This document shows, piece by piece, positions 9,043-25,252 of a DNA stretch of 29,088 nucleotides. The notes below the pieces were generated by a model, which saw nothing but the letters and a program-made list of their open reading frames with translations, did no database searches and had not been told where the DNA came from. A program made the position numbers and the translations under genes. Origin of the DNA: a virus; the IMG/VR virus record IMGVR_UViG_3300032116_001000, positions 1-29,088 of that record; one strand, 5' to 3'. Within the stretch, counting starts at the first letter, position 1, and each line of letters opens with the position of its first letter.

Positions 9043-9072
9043 ATTCTACTCTTGCCCTGACTATAAAGTCAA
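9043..9072 (-). promoter_or_regulatory. Candidate promoter opening the replication module
   Basis: TTGACT (9067-9072) and TAGAAT (9043-9048) are separated by 18 bases, upstream of the metallophosphoesterase gene. Each box matches the sigma70 consensus at 5/6. The -35 box overlaps an inverted repeat at 9058-9071. Confidence 0.6.
9058..9071. promoter_or_regulatory. Inverted repeat over the -35 box, operator-like
   Basis: TGACT, four bases, AGTCA: a perfect 5-bp inverted repeat that covers the -35 element of the promoter at 9043-9072. The position would suit a repressor. No cognate protein is proven. Confidence 0.35.
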
Positions 9073-9332
9073 GCTATTTTGTGAGCATATCTATGTTCTA
9101 TCTCCGTACATGGAAATAGATTATTTATTGAGTTGTTTTGTGTATCACCATCTAAATGATGAACCGTCTCCCAAGCCTTCAGGATCCTATTTAGTTTTTT
9201 TTCTAGCACTAACCTATGTTCGTAATACCATCCACCATTAAAAGACTTAGGATGCTCTGGTACCCAGACAATTGTATATTTATTTAGTTTTTCTTTTTTA
9301 CGCTTAGACCAATCTTCGATTGGCTTATACAC
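9069..9332 (-). CDS. Small HNH endonuclease
   Basis: An 87-aa protein with an HNH_3-type nuclease motif: YYEHRLV (E38, H39, R40), then VHHLDGD (H58, H59, D61), NN (66-67) and NNL (70-72). It is full length for a stand-alone HNH unit of this type. The start is GTG at 9332, overlapping the upstream TAG as TAGTG. Small HNH genes in phages are often selfish homing elements, although a role in packaging or DNA nicking is also known for some. Its place is at the border between the structural and replication modules. The tight coupling suggests it is expressed with the tail genes. Confidence 0.85.
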   Translation of the reverse strand: MYKPIEDWSKRKKEKLNKYTIVWVPEHPKSFNGGWYYEHRLVLEKKLNRILKAWETVHHLDGDTQNNSINNLFPCTEIEHRYAHKIA

Positions 9333-10514: not shown

Positions 10515-10531
10515 CTACCATTATGACTCAA
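10503..10531 (-). promoter_or_regulatory. Candidate promoter for the 54-aa ORF
   Basis: TTGAGT (10526-10531) and TATAAG (10503-10508) are separated by 17 bases on the minus strand. The -35 box lies in the last codons of the fibre gene. Matches to consensus are 4/6 and 5/6, in an AT-rich setting where chance hits are common. Confidence 0.35.
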
Positions 10532-13214
10532 GAGCGTCAAGTCTTGATTTAATAGATAATATAGAGTCGTTCTGTGTTTGAATAATCTTTAATAGTCCTG
10601 GTATTATGAAGTCGGCATTCCATCTTTGTGGAGTTCCATCTGCATCACGATCCACAGCTATTGGATAAACTTCTTCTAGCTCTTCTGCTATAAATCCTGG
10701 TAAATCCATGCCATACCTTGCGTCATCTTCTGGCAAATATCCTTGTTTATAGGTGAAAGATCTTACTGGCAAATTTAATAAAGTAGACGGATCAAGGTCT
10801 GGTTTCTCTGAAATATTAACAATATTTTCTTTAAATCTAATGCTAGAACCAGAAGCAGCAACTAATCTTGAGGCTGGAGTTGTTGCGTCGTTAACTCTTG
10901 CTGCACCACCGCTTGTAGAAACTGGGTATCCTGGATAGTATATATAACTATTAAATGTTGCATTTGACGTAACGGTTCCAGAAGCATTTATTGCAAATCC
11001 GCCGTTTGCCAAAGACATTCCTTCTTCTCCAATTAAACTATATCCGCCAAATCCGTTTCCCTGTATTTGAACAAATTGTCCAAACCTAACTGGTTTAGAT
11101 GTAAATATTGAATAAACATTATTTATTCCAGTTGTTCCAGCAAACAGCCTCAGTGTTCCGCCAGAGTTAATTAATCCATCTGCATCCATGCTAAACCCAG
11201 CAATGGTTCCAGTAGTTGAAGTTATTTCACCACTAAAAGATGCATTTCCAGAAGGAGTAAGGAATACAGTTCTTGTACCGCTAGTATTCCATATTTCAAT
11301 TCCAGAGCTACTTAGTTTTACTGTATTGGTTGTTCCAGATCCGCTGTTAACTAATACGTTATTAAGATTAATTGTTCCAGTTGTTATAACTCCACCAGAA
11401 ATCGATGTTACATTAGAGTTAACCTGATTTGCTGCAATTGCTGTCTGTCCAGTCCCAGCAATAGTAAATGTTCCAGTAGCGGTAACATCTCCTGCTGCGC
11501 TAACATTAAAGTTTGATCCAAGACTAAATTGGCCAGTGCTATATAAGCCCACTGCTTGGCCAGAAGAGTTTGTTGTAGTAAGAGAAGTAGGACCTAATGT
11601 AAATCCTCCTATTTGTCCGCCAGTAGCAACTATTTGTCCAGTGTTTGCCTGTATAGTTACAAGTGGGGATCCTCCTGTTGAAGCATTGTATCCTACGAGT
11701 CCGAGAGAACTCATTTCTACACGACCCGCAGTACCAGTAACACGGATTGCCCCACCATTTACAATTAAGCTTCCACCAGAGTTAATATTTAAATTAGCAG
11801 TCATTGTTGATGCTTGTGTTACGTTTAATGAACCTTTAACTGTTAATGCTGATCCATCCCAAGTAAGTTGGTCTTTTAGGCTAAATTTTCCAGCAGCATC
11901 TAAATAAAATGCAGTATTTGAGTTGTTATATACACCACCTCCATAATATATTTTTGGCAATAGGCTGGCTCCGTCAAGCACAATCCTATTTGTTCCAGTT
12001 GGCGAGTCATCTGATCCAACATATATAATTCCTGCAATTCCAGTATTTGTTTTAAATCTATCTGCATCAACTGTATTTGCCTGGATTTTATCTCCAACAA
12101 TTGTATTTGCTGCAATTAGATTTCCTACAATTGTTCCAGAAGTAATAGATGTTGAAGCATTTATTGTTGATGGAGTTGTTGATGCCGTAGTTGACCATGC
12201 ACCAGCATTGCCAGATGAATCTATAGCCCTTACTCTAACATAATATAGAGTACCAGTAGTTAATCCATTAAAGGTTGCTATGGTTCCGCTTATAACACAA
12301 TCCTGCACAATGCTTGCAAATGAACTAGATGTCGATATCTGAACTTCATACTGACCCCTTGCAAAGTCTACGTCTGATTCTGAGTTTCTGTCCCAATATG
12401 CAATTATATTATCTAAGCCAGACAGCGCTGTTAAATTAAGTGGGGCTGATGGTGCTGATGTATCACCAGGTATTACAACTGATATTGGCACAGACGGAAC
12501 ATAAGAGCTTGGATTACTTCCGTCCGTAGCATTAACCTGAAAATAGTATGTTGTTCCAGACTTTAAATTAAATATTCTTTTTGTATTTTGCCCAGCTTGA
12601 ATAAATAAATACTCATCCCATACAGAAGATGTTCTTCCATATCTAATATAATGTCCTAGCAAATCAGTTGATGTGGATCCAGTCCATGAAACATCTACAT
12701 ATCCAGTAGCACCAGATGTATCTGTAGTATCATTATATGCAAGTACGGATAGACCGCTTGGTACGGATGGTGGTGTTGTATCTATTCCTATTGTTCCAGC
12801 AGATACACTATCTGATGCCTCTGACAATGCTGATACGTTACCGCTTCTATCAACTCCAGTAAATTTAAATGTAAATGGCCCAGTTACTCCTTCTGGCGGA
12901 ACATATGTAACAACGCTATTTATTGAAGCAATAGATCCAAATTTAGTATATGCGCCACCGCTAGAAACATAAACATCAACTCTATTAAAATCTATTGGTG
13001 TTTGATATGCTGTTTCTACCCATTTAACCGATACCCCGCCAACCACAGAAGTAACGTTTGGTTTTGAAGGTACTGGGGGTGGAGTTGTGTCTCCAACAAC
13101 CGTATATGTAAATGCTGGTGACCAATCACCAGAAATTCCATTATCGCTTATAGCCTTGAATCTAAAAGCCCAAGTTCCTGGTGTTAGTCCAGATATTGTT
13201 CTTTTTGTTGTCAT
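10521..13214 (-). CDS. Tail fibre with FN3 domains and C-terminal S74 chaperone
   Basis: An 897-aa tail fibre. It opens with what looks like the second half of an FN3 fold (TISGLTPGTWAFRFKA, 1-40). Three full FN3 domains follow (about 46-139, 145-248, 250-350). The middle (350-780) is Gly/Ser/Thr-rich with triple-stranded-fibre character and two related GFxM/L segments (GGFTLGPTSL, AGFSMDADGL). The end (from about 785) is a peptidase_S74 intramolecular chaperone with SIRFKENI (S791, K795), the usual self-cleavage dyad, and a C-terminal coiled coil. It would trimerise, fold and release the chaperone. ATG 13214 overlaps the upstream stop (TAATG), and an in-frame stop lies three codons upstream, so no longer N-terminus exists. 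Confidence 0.92.
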   Translation of the reverse strand: MTTKRTISGLTPGTWAFRFKAISDNGISGDWSPAFTYTVVGDTTPPPVPSKPNVTSVVGGVSVKWVETAYQTPIDFNRVDVYVSSGGAYTKFGSIASINSVVTYVPPEGVTGPFTFKFTGVDRSGNVSALSEASDSVSAGTIGIDTTPPSVPSGLSVLAYNDTTDTSGATGYVDVSWTGSTSTDLLGHYIRYGRTSSVWDEYLFIQAGQNTKRIFNLKSGTTYYFQVNATDGSNPSSYVPSVPISVVIPGDTSAPSAPLNLTALSGLDNIIAYWDRNSESDVDFARGQYEVQISTSSSFASIVQDCVISGTIATFNGLTTGTLYYVRVRAIDSSGNAGAWSTTASTTPSTINASTSITSGTIVGNLIAANTIVGDKIQANTVDADRFKTNTGIAGIIYVGSDDSPTGTNRIVLDGASLLPKIYYGGGVYNNSNTAFYLDAAGKFSLKDQLTWDGSALTVKGSLNVTQASTMTANLNINSGGSLIVNGGAIRVTGTAGRVEMSSLGLVGYNASTGGSPLVTIQANTGQIVATGGQIGGFTLGPTSLTTTNSSGQAVGLYSTGQFSLGSNFNVSAAGDVTATGTFTIAGTGQTAIAANQVNSNVTSISGGVITTGTINLNNVLVNSGSGTTNTVKLSSSGIEIWNTSGTRTVFLTPSGNASFSGEITSTTGTIAGFSMDADGLINSGGTLRLFAGTTGINNVYSIFTSKPVRFGQFVQIQGNGFGGYSLIGEEGMSLANGGFAINASGTVTSNATFNSYIYYPGYPVSTSGGAARVNDATTPASRLVAASGSSIRFKENIVNISEKPDLDPSTLLNLPVRSFTYKQGYLPEDDARYGMDLPGFIAEELEEVYPIAVDRDADGTPQRWNADFIIPGLLKIIQTQNDSILSIKSRLDALES

Positions 13215-17899: not shown

Positions 17900-18357
17900 T
17901 AAACCTCCTCTAGAGATATATTTACATTCATCCTTATGTACGGATATGTGCCTGATGGGTTACGCTTAACAATTTCAAAGGAGCAGGACGAGAAGTTAAC
18001 CAGAAACTCCTGGTAGCTTAACGTTGCATCTGAATCAATTTTTTGTGTTATCTTCATATAAAATGGCTGTGTGTTATCCATATAGAAATCATAAATTTCT
18101 CCGCCACCAAGTCCGCCGTCTACGGTATACTGAGATAAGTTTGGGACGTCCTGCCAAGATAGATCAAATCTATGTTTTTCTGCAATGGTGGATCTTCTCA
18201 TAGTGCCGTTTGCAGTTCTTAATGAATTCTCAATTTTTTCTATATCTATGCCTAATGGCCTTCTGTTATGATCAGTAATTTTTTGATATGTAGCACCAAC
18301 AGAAGATGATTTAAAATAGATTAATGAGTCTTTAAGACCAGTTACCAACCATGTCAT
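17899..18357 (-). CDS. Distal tail (Dit)-like minor tail protein
   Basis: A 152-aa protein starting MTWLVTGLKDSLIYFK. The core has the layout seen in small distal-tail proteins of siphoviruses: IENSLRTANGTMRRSTIAEK, then HRFDLSWQDVP and a beta-rich C-half ending RMNVNISLEEV. It would form the ring joining the tail tube to the tail tip. It lies directly between the tape measure and the hub genes, the standard place for Dit. ATG 18357 overlaps the tape-measure TGA (ATGA), and its own stop overlaps the hub start. The assignment rests on context plus the general pattern. Confidence 0.78.
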   Translation of the reverse strand: MTWLVTGLKDSLIYFKSSSVGATYQKITDHNRRPLGIDIEKIENSLRTANGTMRRSTIAEKHRFDLSWQDVPNLSQYTVDGGLGGGEIYDFYMDNTQPFYMKITQKIDSDATLSYQEFLVNFSSCSFEIVKRNPSGTYPYIRMNVNISLEEV

Positions 18358-21300
18358 ATTGAAAGATACCTCGTATCCTTTGATCTACCCATAGACGCAA
18401 ATAGTTTCTTTTCCATTGTAGCAATAATTGTATCAGCATCTGCACCTGGCTCTATAATGTCAATCTTATTTACATATACACTAACAGATGAATTTCCAAC
18501 GGCTGCCGACATATTATTTCTTGAAGGTGCCCCTGGGTTATATTGTAAATTATTTATACTATCCATAAATGGTACACCGTATTTTCCAGTAGCCCTAGCA
18601 CTCATCATAAACTCTTTATTTGATCCCCAAAGTGGTATGTTGTCCGCTGTTGAACTTCCGAATCCAGTTATATATCCTCCGCCAGCATATCCACGAATTT
18701 TTCCACCAGCAAATTTCTTTTGTATAGCGCCAGTGTTAATTAAGTCATCTTTTTCTTTATCATATCTATATCTAAATCCGAAAGCTTGTACCATCTCATC
18801 GGCTACTAAGCCATTTGATATTATTCTTCTTTCTTCTTCATTTGTTAGTTTTCTTATTTGTTGAGAATTATAAATACCAAGCATTGCTGCAGCATCTCTA
18901 GGATTACTGTATGTGCCAGTTTTTCCGCTCATTCCAGAAGAATCTATATTAAATTTACTTTGTGCCTCTCTTAAAGAATCCTCTAATACTTTAACGCCAG
19001 CATTAAATGATTGTGGATTCAGAATTCCTTTAAATTGTTTTTCAAAGTTTTTAAATGCACCGCTATTTGTAAAATCATCTAAAGCTTTACCAATTTGACC
19101 GCCATCTTTAAATCCTTTGGTAATTGCTTCAATGGCCTTTTCTACATTTGTTTTCATTTCATTAAACTTGGCACTTGTATTTTTTACTCCAGAAGGAGCA
19201 TTGTCAAGTCCCTTTAGTCTATCTTGTAAGGACTTCTTTTTATCTTCACGAGCAATTTCTTTTTGAAGTTGTGCATTTTCTGATGCATATTCCGCTTGTT
19301 GTTGTTGCACTGCTAGTTGAGCTCTTAATGCTCCCTCTAAATCTCCAGAAGCCAAAGCTGATAAATAATCTACTGAAAGATTTCTTAGTTTTTCTTCATA
19401 CTTTACTCTAAGCTCTTTTAGCTTATTAATATTTTTTTCTTTACGCTCTATTTCTTCTAGCGCATCTATCTGTGCTTGCAGAGCTTTCTTTGCGGCATCA
19501 TTATTTACAGAAGAGCCACCGCCAGAAAACATCCCTTGTAAAGATGACTCTAGTTCTTTTTTAGATTTTTCAAGATCCTGTTGTGCACTTAGTAATTGAA
19601 ATGTTGCTCTTATCTTCATTCCATCAAAATCTTTTACAGCCTGTAAGCTTGGTATAAGTCCTTCAATTCTCATCTTTAGTGCTAGCAAAACATCGGCTGA
19701 CTCTACTCCATTTCTTACTAGACCATTTAAAATTGTTCTTTCTGTTCCCTGCAGACCAGCAATAGAGTCTGCTACTAACTTTACGCCTTCTGCTGTAAGC
19801 CTTCCACTCTTTGCTGCTAAATCCATAGTTTCTGCAAATGTTTTTAAGTCCTGATTTGCAAGTGCATTATTTAATATTGCTGCTTCTTGCTTAAAGGCGA
19901 TAGTACCAAATAGTGTGTCTTGTTGAGCTTTTGTTAATTTATTATACTCTTCTGTTAATTTTGAAATTGCTTGTCTTTGCTCTTCTGTAACTCCTACTGG
20001 GCCAGCACCACCACTACGGGCAAGTGCCGCAAGTCTTTGCTGGTCCATGCCAGCTAATGATGGATTTTGTAAAGCTCTCTCAAATCCAGTTCCTCTTATA
20101 GATGTTATGCCAGAAAGCATTGTAGACACAGAAGATGCTTGTGTTTGATTAGACAATCCAGATAGCATCATGTTTAAATCTGTTGCAAATCCTTCTTGTC
20201 CAGCAGCTTTTAATATGGCAGCCATCATAGTCTTGGCAACCTCTGGGGCAGCTCCAGCAGCAATATAAGTTAGATATTGACTTTGGAATTCTCCAGCAAC
20301 TTCAGCAAAGCTGGATGCGCCTTTTGTTTTTTCTCTTAAGGCACCTGTTGATAAATTTGTAGATGCATTTAACGCAGCTTGAGCTAATACTTCTAGTTGA
20401 CTTGCGGCTTCAGCTGATTTTCCAACTATTTGTTGCAGTTGTATGTCACCTATTGTTTTTAAACTTAGGCCAGCAGCTTTTGCATACTCTTGATCTATTT
20501 CATACTGTCTTACATTAAGAGCAACTATATCTCTCAGTCTATCAAATTGTGTGTACAAAGCTTTTGCAGTTGGTATAAGTGCTCCTAAAGATGCTCCCAC
20601 TGCTGCACCTACAGGACCAAACATCATACCCATTGATGCTCCCATTAATGCCCCGCCAGCAATATTTCCAGCAGTTCCTGTTTGTGGTATTGCAGCTGAT
20701 GCAATTCCAAGACCCATCATTCCCATGGACATTCCCATTCCACGGAATCTTCCAAATCTTCCACCGCCTGCTGTCGCAGCCATAGCCAATTCATTAGGTC
20801 CACCAGCAGCAGCTGTATTTGCAACGGTTTGTAAAGCCACTGCTTTTTCTTGAATATCTTGTGTAACTGCTTGGTCTGCTTTTACCTTAGCTGCTTTTAA
20901 TTGTGCAATTGCAGCAGAAACTTTTGCATCATCTGCCATTTCTTGTGCAGTTAACTCTCTACCAGCTGCAGTAAATGCCATTGCCGTATCTCCAAGTAGT
21001 TGTACCGCAACTCTTCCAAATTCTTTTGTTGATGCTGTTACTCTCTTTTGATAAACAGCTATCTCGTTCATCACGCCACCTTGTGATATGGCCAATGACA
21101 TTCTAGAAATTCTTTCTACTGTTGTTTTGGATGCTGCTCCAGATAACAACCCTGCTCTCATTGCTGTTAATTCTGCTTTGGCTGCAGCTATCATTGCTGC
21201 ATCTGATCCACCAGATTTAAATGCTGCTAATATTTCTGCAGAAGTTTTTCTAACAATTGTTGTATATCCAGTTCCAAGTTCAGCCTTGGCAACCTCCGCA

Positions 21301-23774
21301 GCTGCTCTTGCTGCAGCAACTTCATCACCAGTATCAGCGAATGTTTGCTTCCATGCCTGCTTCATTGCATTTGCTAGTGCAGTACCATCTTTTGCGCTCT
21401 TTGAATATGCTTGAGATATTGCAGTTAAATTAGCGACATGCGTTGCTTGAGTTTGTGCATAATCTTCTGATGTTTGAAAAGCCTTTGTTATATTAGGGCC
21501 AATATTCATCAAAGACTCTCTACTTCTTTCTGTTGTTGCTAGTGGCTCTAGCCTTGCCCTCATTTGTTCTGGTGTTGTTCCTGGAGGAACAATAAAGTTT
21601 GGCATTCTTTCTGCAAAGTTTTGTTGCAGCTGTGCTTCTGGTGATCCAGCAGCCATAGGTCTTGTCAATGATGATAGTGCGGATATTCTGGTTCCGCCTA
21701 ACATTTGTGTTTCTTGTGCTGTTAATCCTAATTGTGCTGCTAATTGTTCTCTAGCGGTTTTTGACATTCCGTGAGAATATTCTATTCCAGCAGGCATAAC
21801 GCCAGCGCCAGATTGGAACATAGGCCTTGGTATAAATGCACCAGCTGCTCTTTGTGCTGCACCAGACATTGCTGTTCCTTGCGCTGCATTAAGATTTTTT
21901 AATGAATTAATTAAGTTATCAATATTTTTTCTAGCTGTTTCAGCGGCAAGTGCCTGGTCATAGAAAGAGTTTGACATTTTTTCAGAGGAAAGACTTGTTG
22001 CCATTATCTCTTCTGTTAGTAACTGGAATTTAGGAGTTCCAGTAAATAGTCTGCCAAGCACTCCCACTGATTTTAGCAAGAATCCAAAGAAGTTAAGGAA
22101 TACACCAGACAACATAATAAGTGGTCCGACTAGTCCAATTAATGCTCCGACTATTGTTAAGACATTTTTAACTCCATCTGGAAGATTATTGAATCCATCT
22201 AACAATTTATTTACTGCACTAAGAACTGTTGTAAAGACGCTAAGGAATCCTTCTCCAACACCAGCAAGGTTAGCCTTGAATGTTTCAACCTGTCTTTGGA
22301 ATCTACCAGAAGCTGACTCTGTTAATATTGATAACTCTCGGTCAGCTATTTGAGCTAATTCCGCAGTAGAGGCTCCCATTAATTCTATAACCTGTAATGT
22401 TTGACTTCCAGATTTACCTAGGTTATCAAATAATGCTGACATACGTGCAAACTGGAACTTACCGAATAGTTGTTCTATAGCCCTCGCTCTAGCTAATGGG
22501 TCTAGGGCATTCAATTCATTTTTTAATGCTATAACAGTTTGTACTAAATCTCCAGCATTTGCATTAACTATACTTTCAATATTTACACCAAATCCATTTA
22601 GAACTTCTGTAGTTTTTTGTGTTGGATTAATTATAGATGCTAATCCAGACTTAAGTGCGTTTGCTGATTCAGAAGCGTTTATACCACCCTCACGCATTGC
22701 TGTAAGGAATAGTGCTAAGTCTTTTACATCTCCGCCAAGCTGTCTAACAACTGGCCCAGCTTTTGGAATTGCTATAACTAGGTCATTAAGGGATGTAGAT
22801 GTTTGGTTTTCAACTGCGTTAAGGAAGTTGATTGATTCAGCCAGCTCTTTTGTATTTAAATTAAATGCATTTTGAAGTGATAATGTCGCAGCCATAGCTT
22901 CTTGTCTATCTACTTCTCCGAGTACTGCAAGACGTGTGGTTTCTGCTACTGACTTTATTAGGTCTTCTCCCGTAGCACCAGTTGCCGCAATATCCGCAGC
23001 CAAACCTATTGTTTCTTGAACAGATGCACCAAGATCTCTGGCTAAGGTTTTTGCCAAGTCAGATGTCTGTGCTTTTATGTTTGCTATCTCAGAGGTTGTT
23101 GCACCACCAACATCCCCATAAACCTTTGCTAATCTTGTTAACTGTTTATCTACTTCTTTAAATGAATTTGCTGCAGCCCCTGCAAACATAGTGAGTGGTA
23201 CTGTTAATCCTACTGTTAGCTGGCGTCCTGCCCATTGTGTATTTTTACCCAAATTAATGAGTTCTGTTGAAGCTCCCTGTATGGACCTTCCTATAATCTT
23301 AAACTGTTCTGCTCTTAAAGATTTCATTACTGCTGGGTCAAATTTATCTAGCCCAGTAGGTGTAGACAGAATATTTCTTGTTTCTCCGCTTGGCCCAATA
23401 GATGTAGTAAGTACAGACTTCTGTAATTTTACCTGATCTTCTGCAAGCCTTCTTATCATTCCACGCTGTCCTCTGGCCTGCAGCGTAAATTCACGATAGT
23501 AGTCTCTTAGCTTTATTCTTCCTTGATCTAAGTGTTTACCAAATTCTCTTGTTTGATTTGTAACATCGACAAATGATGATGACCAGAGTCTGCTGTTACG
23601 CATACCTTGTATAAATTGTTTATTTAGATTGTCAATTGAGACGAAAGCTCCTGAACCCAAACCATTTAGTTGGGCTTGTAGTGTTCCAATTTCAGCGTTG
23701 GCTCTTTTAATCTCTGATATAAGATCAGAGAAGTTAGCATTAGCATTAAAATTAATTACTACTGATTGTGCCAT
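18354..23774 (-). CDS. Tape measure protein
   Basis: 1806 aa, the longest gene of the window. It sets tail length and acts in DNA delivery. Residues of about 200-400 form a TP901/PhageMin-type core (DKQLTRLAKVYGDVGG, AMREGGINASESANALKSG). A hydrophobic stretch at about 540-575 (LTIVGALIGLVGPLIMLSG) and a glycine/methionine-rich one at about 1000-1060 (GMGMSMGMMGLGIASA) could enter membrane. Long helical coiled regions follow. The C-terminus has the usual GGG-containing tail (GGKIRGYAGGGYITGFGSST) and a NIPLWGSNKEFMMSARA segment. At about 0.15 nm per residue the tail would be near 270 nm. It sits behind the chaperone genes, as expected. Confidence 0.95.
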   Translation of the reverse strand: MAQSVVINFNANANFSDLISEIKRANAEIGTLQAQLNGLGSGAFVSIDNLNKQFIQGMRNSRLWSSSFVDVTNQTREFGKHLDQGRIKLRDYYREFTLQARGQRGMIRRLAEDQVKLQKSVLTTSIGPSGETRNILSTPTGLDKFDPAVMKSLRAEQFKIIGRSIQGASTELINLGKNTQWAGRQLTVGLTVPLTMFAGAAANSFKEVDKQLTRLAKVYGDVGGATTSEIANIKAQTSDLAKTLARDLGASVQETIGLAADIAATGATGEDLIKSVAETTRLAVLGEVDRQEAMAATLSLQNAFNLNTKELAESINFLNAVENQTSTSLNDLVIAIPKAGPVVRQLGGDVKDLALFLTAMREGGINASESANALKSGLASIINPTQKTTEVLNGFGVNIESIVNANAGDLVQTVIALKNELNALDPLARARAIEQLFGKFQFARMSALFDNLGKSGSQTLQVIELMGASTAELAQIADRELSILTESASGRFQRQVETFKANLAGVGEGFLSVFTTVLSAVNKLLDGFNNLPDGVKNVLTIVGALIGLVGPLIMLSGVFLNFFGFLLKSVGVLGRLFTGTPKFQLLTEEIMATSLSSEKMSNSFYDQALAAETARKNIDNLINSLKNLNAAQGTAMSGAAQRAAGAFIPRPMFQSGAGVMPAGIEYSHGMSKTAREQLAAQLGLTAQETQMLGGTRISALSSLTRPMAAGSPEAQLQQNFAERMPNFIVPPGTTPEQMRARLEPLATTERSRESLMNIGPNITKAFQTSEDYAQTQATHVANLTAISQAYSKSAKDGTALANAMKQAWKQTFADTGDEVAAARAAAEVAKAELGTGYTTIVRKTSAEILAAFKSGGSDAAMIAAAKAELTAMRAGLLSGAASKTTVERISRMSLAISQGGVMNEIAVYQKRVTASTKEFGRVAVQLLGDTAMAFTAAGRELTAQEMADDAKVSAAIAQLKAAKVKADQAVTQDIQEKAVALQTVANTAAAGGPNELAMAATAGGGRFGRFRGMGMSMGMMGLGIASAAIPQTGTAGNIAGGALMGASMGMMFGPVGAAVGASLGALIPTAKALYTQFDRLRDIVALNVRQYEIDQEYAKAAGLSLKTIGDIQLQQIVGKSAEAASQLEVLAQAALNASTNLSTGALREKTKGASSFAEVAGEFQSQYLTYIAAGAAPEVAKTMMAAILKAAGQEGFATDLNMMLSGLSNQTQASSVSTMLSGITSIRGTGFERALQNPSLAGMDQQRLAALARSGGAGPVGVTEEQRQAISKLTEEYNKLTKAQQDTLFGTIAFKQEAAILNNALANQDLKTFAETMDLAAKSGRLTAEGVKLVADSIAGLQGTERTILNGLVRNGVESADVLLALKMRIEGLIPSLQAVKDFDGMKIRATFQLLSAQQDLEKSKKELESSLQGMFSGGGSSVNNDAAKKALQAQIDALEEIERKEKNINKLKELRVKYEEKLRNLSVDYLSALASGDLEGALRAQLAVQQQQAEYASENAQLQKEIAREDKKKSLQDRLKGLDNAPSGVKNTSAKFNEMKTNVEKAIEAITKGFKDGGQIGKALDDFTNSGAFKNFEKQFKGILNPQSFNAGVKVLEDSLREAQSKFNIDSSGMSGKTGTYSNPRDAAAMLGIYNSQQIRKLTNEEERRIISNGLVADEMVQAFGFRYRYDKEKDDLINTGAIQKKFAGGKIRGYAGGGYITGFGSSTADNIPLWGSNKEFMMSARATGKYGVPFMDSINNLQYNPGAPSRNNMSAAVGNSSVSVYVNKIDIIEPGADADTIIATMEKKLFASMGRSKDTRYLSI

Positions 23775-23777
23775 TTA

Positions 23778-24478
23778 TTAATCCCAGACTTCGTATCCTA
23801 AGCCATGTCCGATACCGAATCCCTCTTCTTTGGCAAGTCTGCCCTTTAGATTTGTAATATCGTTTATTCTTGGATCGTCTCCCAGTGCTTCCCTCCTGAC
23901 ATCATCAAATGATTTAGAACTTTGTGATCCACCTTCAAGGTCAACCCCCTGTAGAGCTGCTAGGAATTTCTTATCTTCTAAGTCTTTCCTGTTCATCTCT
24001 TCTAGTGTGTCAATAAGTTCTTTTAATGACATCTTTTCTTCCAGGTCTTCATAGTTTTCCCATGAGCCCAGAAGAAAAACTTGCTTTTCTAAGGCAGCGA
24101 GATCAAGTTCTTTCCAAGTCGTTGAAGACTTAGTTTTTTCGGTTAGTTCTCCCCAACCATCTTGTTCGCTGCCGCTATTAAATTTGGGTCACCAAGTTTA
24201 ATACCGCCACACACCTCAATAATTTTCCATATTGTAGGCACGTCTAAAGCTTCTTCTAGGGCTTCCTTGTTCCCTGCTAGGTCTGGCAATGATCGCTTAA
24301 GCGCAATTGCACAAGCATCGATAAAAATGTCGATAGCTTCTTTTTCATTCTTTACGTCATCAAGTTTTGTGACGACCTCCATAAAATCACGAAGGTATTT
24401 AATTGGGAGCGGTTTTAATTTTACTTGCCGTCCGTCTTGCAGTTCAATCTCTACAGTATCATATAACTGAGTAGCCAA
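23778..24478 (-). CDS. Tail assembly chaperone, frameshifted long form (-1)
   Basis: Predicted gpGT-like fusion of about 233 aa. The first 100 codons are read in the frame of the short chaperone. After A AAT TTA (24179-24185) ribosomes slip back one base and read 133 codons to a stop at 23778. The -1 frame is open through the whole junction (NSGSEQDGWGELTEK, then SSTTWKELDLAALEKQVFL) into MSLKELIDTLEEMNRKDLED and FLAALQGVDLEGG, which is typical of actinophage second chaperone frames. An ATG at 24032 exists, but the 49 in-frame codons upstream look protein-like, so the fusion is preferred to a separate gene. The product would coat the tape measure during tail assembly. Confidence 0.85.
24143..24478 (-). 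CDS. Tail assembly chaperone, short form
   Basis: A 111-aa gpG-like protein, with segments VEIELQDGRQVKLKPLPIKY, AIDIFIDACAIALKR and ALEEALDVPTIWKIIEVCGG, a common pattern of siphovirus chaperones. The start is TTG at 24478, chosen because AGGAGG lies seven bases before it. It is the first gene after the tail-tube terminator and has a strong extended -10 promoter of its own. Most ribosomes would end here at TAA (24143-24145). A minority would shift frame to make the long form. It binds the tape measure and recruits tube subunits (family knowledge). Confidence 0.9.
   Translation of the reverse strand: MATQLYDTVEIELQDGRQVKLKPLPIKYLRDFMEVVTKLDDVKNEKEAIDIFIDACAIALKRSLPDLAGNKEALEEALDVPTIWKIIEVCGGIKLGDPNLIAAANKMVGEN
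24179..24185 (-). promoter_or_regulatory. Programmed -1 frameshift site A AAT TTA
   Basis: A canonical X XXY YYZ heptamer in the correct phase: the zero-frame codons are AAT and TTA, and after slippage they pair as AAA and TTT. It lies 36 bases before the zero-frame stop, inside the region where the -1 frame is open. The only obvious hairpin downstream (24141-24158) begins about 20 bases away, farther than usual, so its role as a stimulator is doubtful. Confidence 0.75.
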
Positions 24479-24577: not shown

Positions 24578-25252
24578 TTACGCTACAATGCGGTCAACGA
24601 TTCTACCATATGTATCTGAGTAACGTGGATCACCCAAGAGACGGAATGTCACTGGGAATCTAGTTGCCTCGTTACGGGTCAAAGCATGCTCAGATGCTTC
24701 TACTGAAAGAACACGACGTGCGTAGTAAATACGCTCACGGTCTTTAGCTACTCCGCCTACGGTTGCGCCTGGGGCGTTACCAACTGCGACGAATTGACGT
24801 TCTGTTGGTTCTGCGTTAAGAGCACCGATTGATAAGTCCAAACGTGAGTCTGGGACTGCATCGTATGTCTTTAGGTCATCCTCGGATGCACCGAATACGA
24901 CTAGAAGGTTACGAAGTGTACCTTCTGTAAGTGTTGTTGAAAGCATAACACGTTGTGAAGACTTGAAAAGTTTTGCAACGTCTAACTGTTGATCAACTTC
25001 TACCTCACCGTATGTTGGTTCATACATAACTCTTAGACCATCAGATGTAAATCCTACCTCTGACCATTTTGTTGAGTCAAGTGCTCCTCCAGTACCTGTT
25101 GAAGCTGCGTATGATCCTGTTGGTTGTGGTGATACTGTGAATGGATCTAATCCATCTTGGTATGCATCTGTCCAATCAGCTGATGTTGAATCTTTTTTTG
25201 ATATATAAATTCTAGCTGCACCAATAATAATATTACGAACATTAGTTGCCAT
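24578..25252 (-). CDS. Major tail (tube) protein
   Basis: A 224-aa protein that would form the hexameric rings of the tail tube. Diagnostic points are its place before the chaperones, its size, and the sequence style (MATNVRNIIIGAARIYISKK, then WSEVGFTSDGLRVMYEP with EVDQQLDVAKL and SVEASEHALTRNEATRFPV). Arginines are mostly CGT/CGC (13 of 17) and the G+C is visibly higher than in neighbours, a sign of strong expression. ATG 25252 has a long ribosome site AAGGAGGAGGTGA. A candidate promoter lies at 25313-25341 and a terminator at 24535-24556, so it may be a single-gene unit. Confidence 0.92.
   Translation of the reverse strand: MATNVRNIIIGAARIYISKKDSTSADWTDAYQDGLDPFTVSPQPTGSYAASTGTGGALDSTKWSEVGFTSDGLRVMYEPTYGEVEVDQQLDVAKLFKSSQRVMLSTTLTEGTLRNLLVVFGASEDDLKTYDAVPDSRLDLSIGALNAEPTERQFVAVGNAPGATVGGVAKDRERIYYARRVLSVEASEHALTRNEATRFPVTFRLLGDPRYSDTYGRIVDRIVA

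Follow-up and report, generated by a model that had tools for sequence, protein, structure and literature searches.

The locus described here raises the question of how a phage reading frame with no start codon near its beginning comes to be translated and, if ribosomes enter it by slipping out of the gene before it, on which bases they slip. It lies on the minus strand of a 29,088-nt stretch of viral DNA (IMG/VR record IMGVR_UViG_3300032116_001000, positions 1 to 29,088), which we call the window. A first-pass annotation made from the letters had noted a zero-frame gene stopping at 24143, a -1 frame open to 23778 and 49 codons of that frame ahead of an ATG. Reading of the open reading frames confirms this arrangement. 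The zero-frame gene, G, runs from a TTG at 24478 to a TAA at 24145-24143 (111 codons), and the second frame, T, overlaps it by 43 nt in the -1 frame. The first in-frame ATG of T is at 24032, with 49 -1 codons between the slip and that ATG, and no ATG, GTG or TTG occurs in the window's T frame before it. The features of the locus and its neighbours are as follows.

24143..24478, minus strand: G, zero-frame tail assembly chaperone, 111 aa, TTG start (open reading frame, homology, PHROG 10504 at E 4e-33)
23778..24188, minus strand: T, -1 extension open across the G stop (ORF P0001, 136 codons; stop at 23780-23778)
24182..24188, minus strand: C CCA AAT heptamer, in phase, common to most relatives
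24179..24185, minus strand: A AAT TTA heptamer, in zero-frame phase, overlapping C CCA AAT by 4 nt
18354..23774, minus strand: tape measure protein, the next gene (PHROG 10030 at E 5e-119)
24578..25252, minus strand: tail tube protein, the previous gene (PF25681 at E 1.7e-5, just under the curated cutoff)
24556-24535, minus strand: terminator-like stem-loop before G
24511-24506, minus strand: extended -10 promoter (TG.TATAAT) before G

The pair is placed between the tail tube and tape measure genes, as in chaperones of the gpG/gpGT type; in Streptomyces phages the major tail protein occupies the position equivalent to the window's tail tube gene. Homology to known chaperones is evident from sequence comparison. 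G matches 127 Streptomyces phage records, mostly annotated as tail assembly chaperone (46-53% identity among the matches listed), and tblastn of G against annotated tail assembly chaperones gives E values down to 4e-24; matches to PHROG 330/344 are weak. From its residue 29 onwards, T matches the following -1 frame in Streptomyces phages and in three Rhodococcus phages, and two Streptomyces phage records and one Rhodococcus record are annotated as joined. The predicted structure of G (pLDDT 77) matches a viral library entry named tail assembly chaperone at E 2e-6, and the HK97 chaperone 2ob9 only at E 1.3; that of fused GT has a pLDDT of 69.5. A sequence search of solved structures with G found no relative. 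The locus closely resembles that of the Stanwilliamsviridae Streptomyces phages, which have homologous G and T genes in the same order and the same -1 frame; this comparison covers the tail genes only, and when 1644 nt of the tape measure gene were compared as DNA no match appeared. Elsewhere in the window, a small open reading frame (9069-9332) resembles, by eye, an HNH endonuclease, and the end of a tail fibre-like one (10521-13214) resembles, again by eye, an S74-type chaperone domain.

Xu, Hendrix and Duda reportedly described conserved -1 frameshifting in tail assembly chaperones in 2004, and lambda gpG/gpGT slips on G GGA AAG. We propose a chaperone pair of the lambda type. Most ribosomes would stop at 24143 and release the 111-aa G, and a minority, shifting by one base at the decamer CCCAAATTTA (24188-24179), would continue in the -1 frame to 23778, giving a GT of a predicted 233 aa. 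Either of the two heptamers in the decamer might be used, the ancestral C CCA AAT or the derived A AAT TTA, and a branched RNA structure over the G stop, at ordinary spacing, would probably stimulate the slip. On the strength of the relatives, -1 frameshifting to a GT chaperone is very likely in this freshwater phage gene, and we hold the account with the decamer as slip site and the downstream structure as probable stimulator to be highly probable. Sequence comparison shows that the -1 frame is conserved, under selection and without a start of its own, that the site is constrained and that the proteins are homologous to chaperones; from this we infer the slip, whereas any rate for it is conjectural. 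By analogy with lambda, G and GT may load the tail tube protein on the tape measure. The Atkins 2016 review (PMC5009743) likewise describes -1 frameshifting of lambda gpG/gpGT-type tail assembly chaperones as conserved.

Two canonical X XXY YYZ heptamers are in phase inside the window's G/T overlap, and CCCAAATTTA contains both. The first-pass annotation had picked out the all-A/T heptamer as the site. A AAT TTA is indeed in the right phase (24185-24179), and it or its TTG form stands alone in some relatives (below); as a single site the proposal falls short, given the overlapping C CCA AAT. As a bare 7-mer AAATTTA is common, with 20 occurrences in the window against 16.6 expected. In-phase AAATTTN occurs 4 times in the 7745 codons of the window's genes, or about 0.007 per 14-codon overlap. 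The chance of any in-phase X XXY YYZ in an overlap of 14 codons is about 0.07, so a heptamer by itself is weak evidence; what is decisive for frameshifting, over the heptamer, is the conserved -1 frame together with the relatives. Compared with lambda, the window combines C CCA AAT with A AAT TTA in one site, and Asn and Leu rather than Lys tRNAs are in the second codon. Rous sarcoma virus gag-pol slips on A AAU UUA, the same heptamer as the derived one here, in an unrelated system with a retroviral stimulator and a eukaryotic ribosome. A literature search for AAATTTA (also in RNA spelling) with phage tail genes returned nothing relevant; its coverage left out most subscription papers, and novelty is unproven.

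Scans of IMG/VR gave several hundred relatives, many contigs occurring more than once, and we mark counts of distinct sequences as such. Relatives with G and T in separate frames (split relatives) comprise 336 loci, or 207 distinct sequences, from many metagenomes and cultured phages. C CCA AAY is found in 176 of the 207 distinct sequences, eight of which also have A AAT TTR; A AAT TTR stands alone in 16, CCG GAA of the Boydwoodruffvirinae type is found in 13, and G GAT TTA (L151) and G GGA AAA (Rhodococcus phage Francesca) in one each. Loccivirinae have only C CCA AAT; the window differs in having A AAT TTA as well, and in an insertion that falls within the RNA structure. Boydwoodruffvirinae, unlike the window, have GAC CCG GAA, and CCCGGAA is listed as a hypothetical slippery site by PRFect (PMC10885494). 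Since the 13 Streptomyces-phage-type sequences with CCG GAA do without one, a canonical heptamer is not indispensable in the family. Loci of the Boydwoodruffvirinae type with a -1 T frame are L016, L017, L020-L022, L024, L028-L031, L033, L034, L092 and L108; GAC CCG GAA replaces C CCA AAY in all of them, and their overlaps contain no X XXY YYZ.

That only C CCA AAT acts in the window, A AAT TTA being a chance product of Asn-Leu codons in an AT-rich genome, is a possibility we entertain tentatively. It draws on C CCA AAY occupying this position in most family members, on RNA stems that start 6-8 nt past it across the family, and on the frequency of TTA and TTG, which together make up 34% of the Leu codons in G. 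Against it stands the pattern of loss. For the tree, G was trimmed 66 nt ahead of its stop to keep out the columns of the site. Four groups on it lack C CCA AAY: the window clade (L036, L038), the L168/L173/L180/L183 clade, L154 and the L189 clade. A AAT TTR is present in all four, except in L151 within the second. The sequence comparison suggests at least four losses of C CCA AAY, and every freshwater lineage with such a loss has A AAT TTR. Codon use alone predicts AAT TTR with a probability of about 0.2 per lineage and about 0.002 for all four, the lineages being assumed independent; an independent-pairs test on the tree, with too few supported pairs, was not significant. In L151 (and L416, on the same contig), inside the L168/L173/L180/L183 clade that otherwise has A AAT TTA only, G GAT TTA replaces A AAT TTA. 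That the change went from C CCA AAY towards A AAT TTR is suggested by the family-wide spread of C CCA AAY, the tree being silent on order.

The first-pass annotation had named the synonymous disappearance of its heptamer from close relatives as evidence that would count against it. This check did not refute the proposal; the heptamer that disappears is C CCA AAT. In the close relatives L003/L036 and L005/L038 the site reads TCCAAATTTA, a synonymous GAC->GAT change having removed C CCA AAT and left A AAT TTA; L036 and L038 keep the T frame with A AAT TTA as their sole canonical heptamer. The site is constrained across the family as well: the Asp codon of the D-P-N site (window 24190-24188) is GAC in 161 of 170 sequences, against 41% GAC elsewhere in G, and all nine GAT cases have AAT TTR next (Fisher p 9e-11, uncorrected for relatedness).

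These same sequences, with the 16 distinct ones that have A AAT TTR alone, lend something to the opposite reading, in which only A AAT TTA acts in the window. We consider this unlikely, as C CCA AAT, the site of most of the family, is intact there. In the preferred reading either heptamer of the decamer may be used. The readings are directly testable because their predictions differ by one junction residue: DPN-F-NSGSEQ if C CCA AAT slips and DPN-L-NSGSEQ if A AAT TTA slips. The first-pass annotation had expected the Leu form (PNL followed by NSGSEQ); with the family's usual heptamer overlapping A AAT TTA, the junction may have Phe instead.

Downstream of the decamer, the RNA from 24178 to 24078 folds with a minimum free energy of -33 kcal/mol, against -18.9 for shuffled sequences (z -4.8; 0 of 200 shuffles as good). 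The elements of this fold are listed below.

24166..24173, minus strand: 5' arm of the outer stem, GGCAGCGA (fold), starting 5 nt past A AAT TTA and 8 nt past C CCA AAT
24093..24100, minus strand: 3' arm of the outer stem, TCGCTGCC (fold, window-clade pairing)
24161..24164, minus strand: 5' arm of the second stem, CAAG, pairing with 24107-24104 (CAAG/CUUG)
24141..24158, minus strand: hairpin GGTTGG/CTAACC over the G stop codon, 24158-24153 pairing with 24146-24141
24114..24133, minus strand: second inner hairpin (fold)

Written as RNA, the outer stem pairs GGCAGCGA/UCGCUGCC, and the outer and second stems enclose two hairpins, one of which covers the G stop. The first-pass annotation had seen a 6-bp hairpin over the stop and set it aside as too far downstream to be a stimulator. 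The hairpin is real, but it is an inner arm of the larger structure, and the objection from distance fails because the outer stem, starting 5 nt past A AAT TTA, had been missed.

The eight window-clade sequences retain pairing in all 160 cells, most of which never vary; covariation says little there because the stem is nearly invariant. In two other groups similar stems occur about 6-8 nt past C CCA AAY; these are 92 and 91% paired, with 6 and 11 compensatory cells, above every shuffle; covariation is limited by coding in two frames and by the relatedness of the sequences. When 83 relatives from mixed groups were pooled, the RNAalifold consensus contained a weak stem, because its register differs between groups, and the sequences were then folded group by group. 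In relatives with A AAT TTG alone the stem begins only 3 nt downstream. From the fold and its conservation we infer that the structure probably stimulates the slip. No conserved Shine-Dalgarno-like stimulator was found upstream: GGAGG occurs 15 nt upstream in 70 of 178 relatives and is missing from the window, so none is claimed. Relative to its relatives, the window clade has an extra T sequence, GWGELTEKTKSSTTW (about 24160-24112, after the G stop), with two W-x-E-L motifs, part of which forms a hairpin within the RNA structure.

Whether T needs the slip at all is decided by its relatives. Stops in their -1 frame would have spoken against recoding, as the first-pass annotation recognised, and all 336 split loci keep T in the -1 frame, which bears out its proposal of recoded tail chaperones. 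One contig (L203/L405) scores +1; a large internal deletion in its G joins the G start to the slippery region, a defect or assembly error. In bacterial genomes the single contig match is L429 (109,918 bases), which belongs to a cyanobacterial MAG but may be a phage contig placed there by binning.

T could in principle be a separate gene read from the ATG at 24032, by its own or a re-initiating ribosome, and this ATG does have GGAAG a few nucleotides upstream in the window. Yet conserved T sequence and purifying selection already lie upstream of it. For the T codons from the G stop to the ATG, dN/dS is 0.08-0.12 against L036, L037 and L117-L119 (0.42 against L116, on few sites), and 184 of 191 relatives have no ATG, GTG or TTG ahead of T's conserved W motif. 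T is under purifying selection, including the stretch before its ATG, and with neither early starts nor high dN/dS the simplest reading is that ribosomes enter it from the other frame, upstream. One clade, moreover, makes G and T as a single polypeptide. The internal start at 24032 was rejected on this evidence and strikes us as very improbable. That same single-frame clade might suggest that a sequencing error or a decay mutation has split a single gene into two frames, but the split recurs throughout the 336 loci and the fused clade, nested inside the split ones, has an additional G gene, so an assembly error was rejected as contradicted by the relatives and scarcely deserves credence.

The fused clade itself, with G and T in one frame, comprises 87 loci (73 distinct GT sequences; L007, L009-L014, L269-L348) and is nested among split relatives with SH-aLRT 100. 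Fused GT is 226-240 aa long in the six read closely. A second G gene (G'), mostly of 104-110 aa, follows it in all 86 testable loci, the contig of the 87th ending first, and 15-29 nt past G' (78 measurable loci) comes a long open reading frame, read as the tape measure gene by position. Among the split loci, 319 of which have 600 nt or more of downstream sequence, no second G was found; the combination of fused GT and a second G gene is confined to loci whose T is not -1. G' groups with the split G of the nearest clade, with weak support (80-81). No residual slippery site was found in 79 of the 87 fused genes.

An extended -10 sequence, TGnTATAmT, is present in 51 of the 59 distinct GT-G' intervals (shuffle mean 0.5) and ahead of split G in 102 of 159 distinct relatives (shuffle mean 1.6); it precedes fused GT in 3 of 65 (shuffle mean 0.3) and is found in 0 of 155 control regions. 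Recoding seems to have been replaced by two genes in this clade, since the second G is always present and the extended -10 promoter stands in most intervals. The distribution of the motif suggests that the putative promoter stayed with the short copy, G', and may set the ratio of G to GT.

Such an arrangement is already known in kind. Some T4-like phages have a short chaperone gene and a fused long one, according to PRFect (PMC10885494), which cites Vladimirov, Gautam and Davidson 2022. The fused clade resembles them, as described there, in its short gene and long fused gene without a frameshift, and fits this two-gene type in 86 of 86 testable loci, whereas the window is split. It differs from the T4-like case, as far as that source describes it, in being nested among frameshifting relatives and in having a promoter-like site before the short gene and not the long one.

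Chaperone frameshifting itself is known, and a compound slip site that turns over is a variant of it. The case is ordinary in kind; two features are worth following, this site with its turnover and the apparent substitution of two genes for recoding. On balance we lean towards the view that control of the chaperone ratio has moved: at least four times from one heptamer to its overlapping neighbour, by way of compound sites (CCCAAATTTR), and once from recoding to two genes, the short copy keeping the promoter and the long one going without. The family offers a natural series for studying how the site of a programmed frameshift can shift and stay functional, and it bears on how phages set the ratio of the two chaperones once the frameshift is gone.
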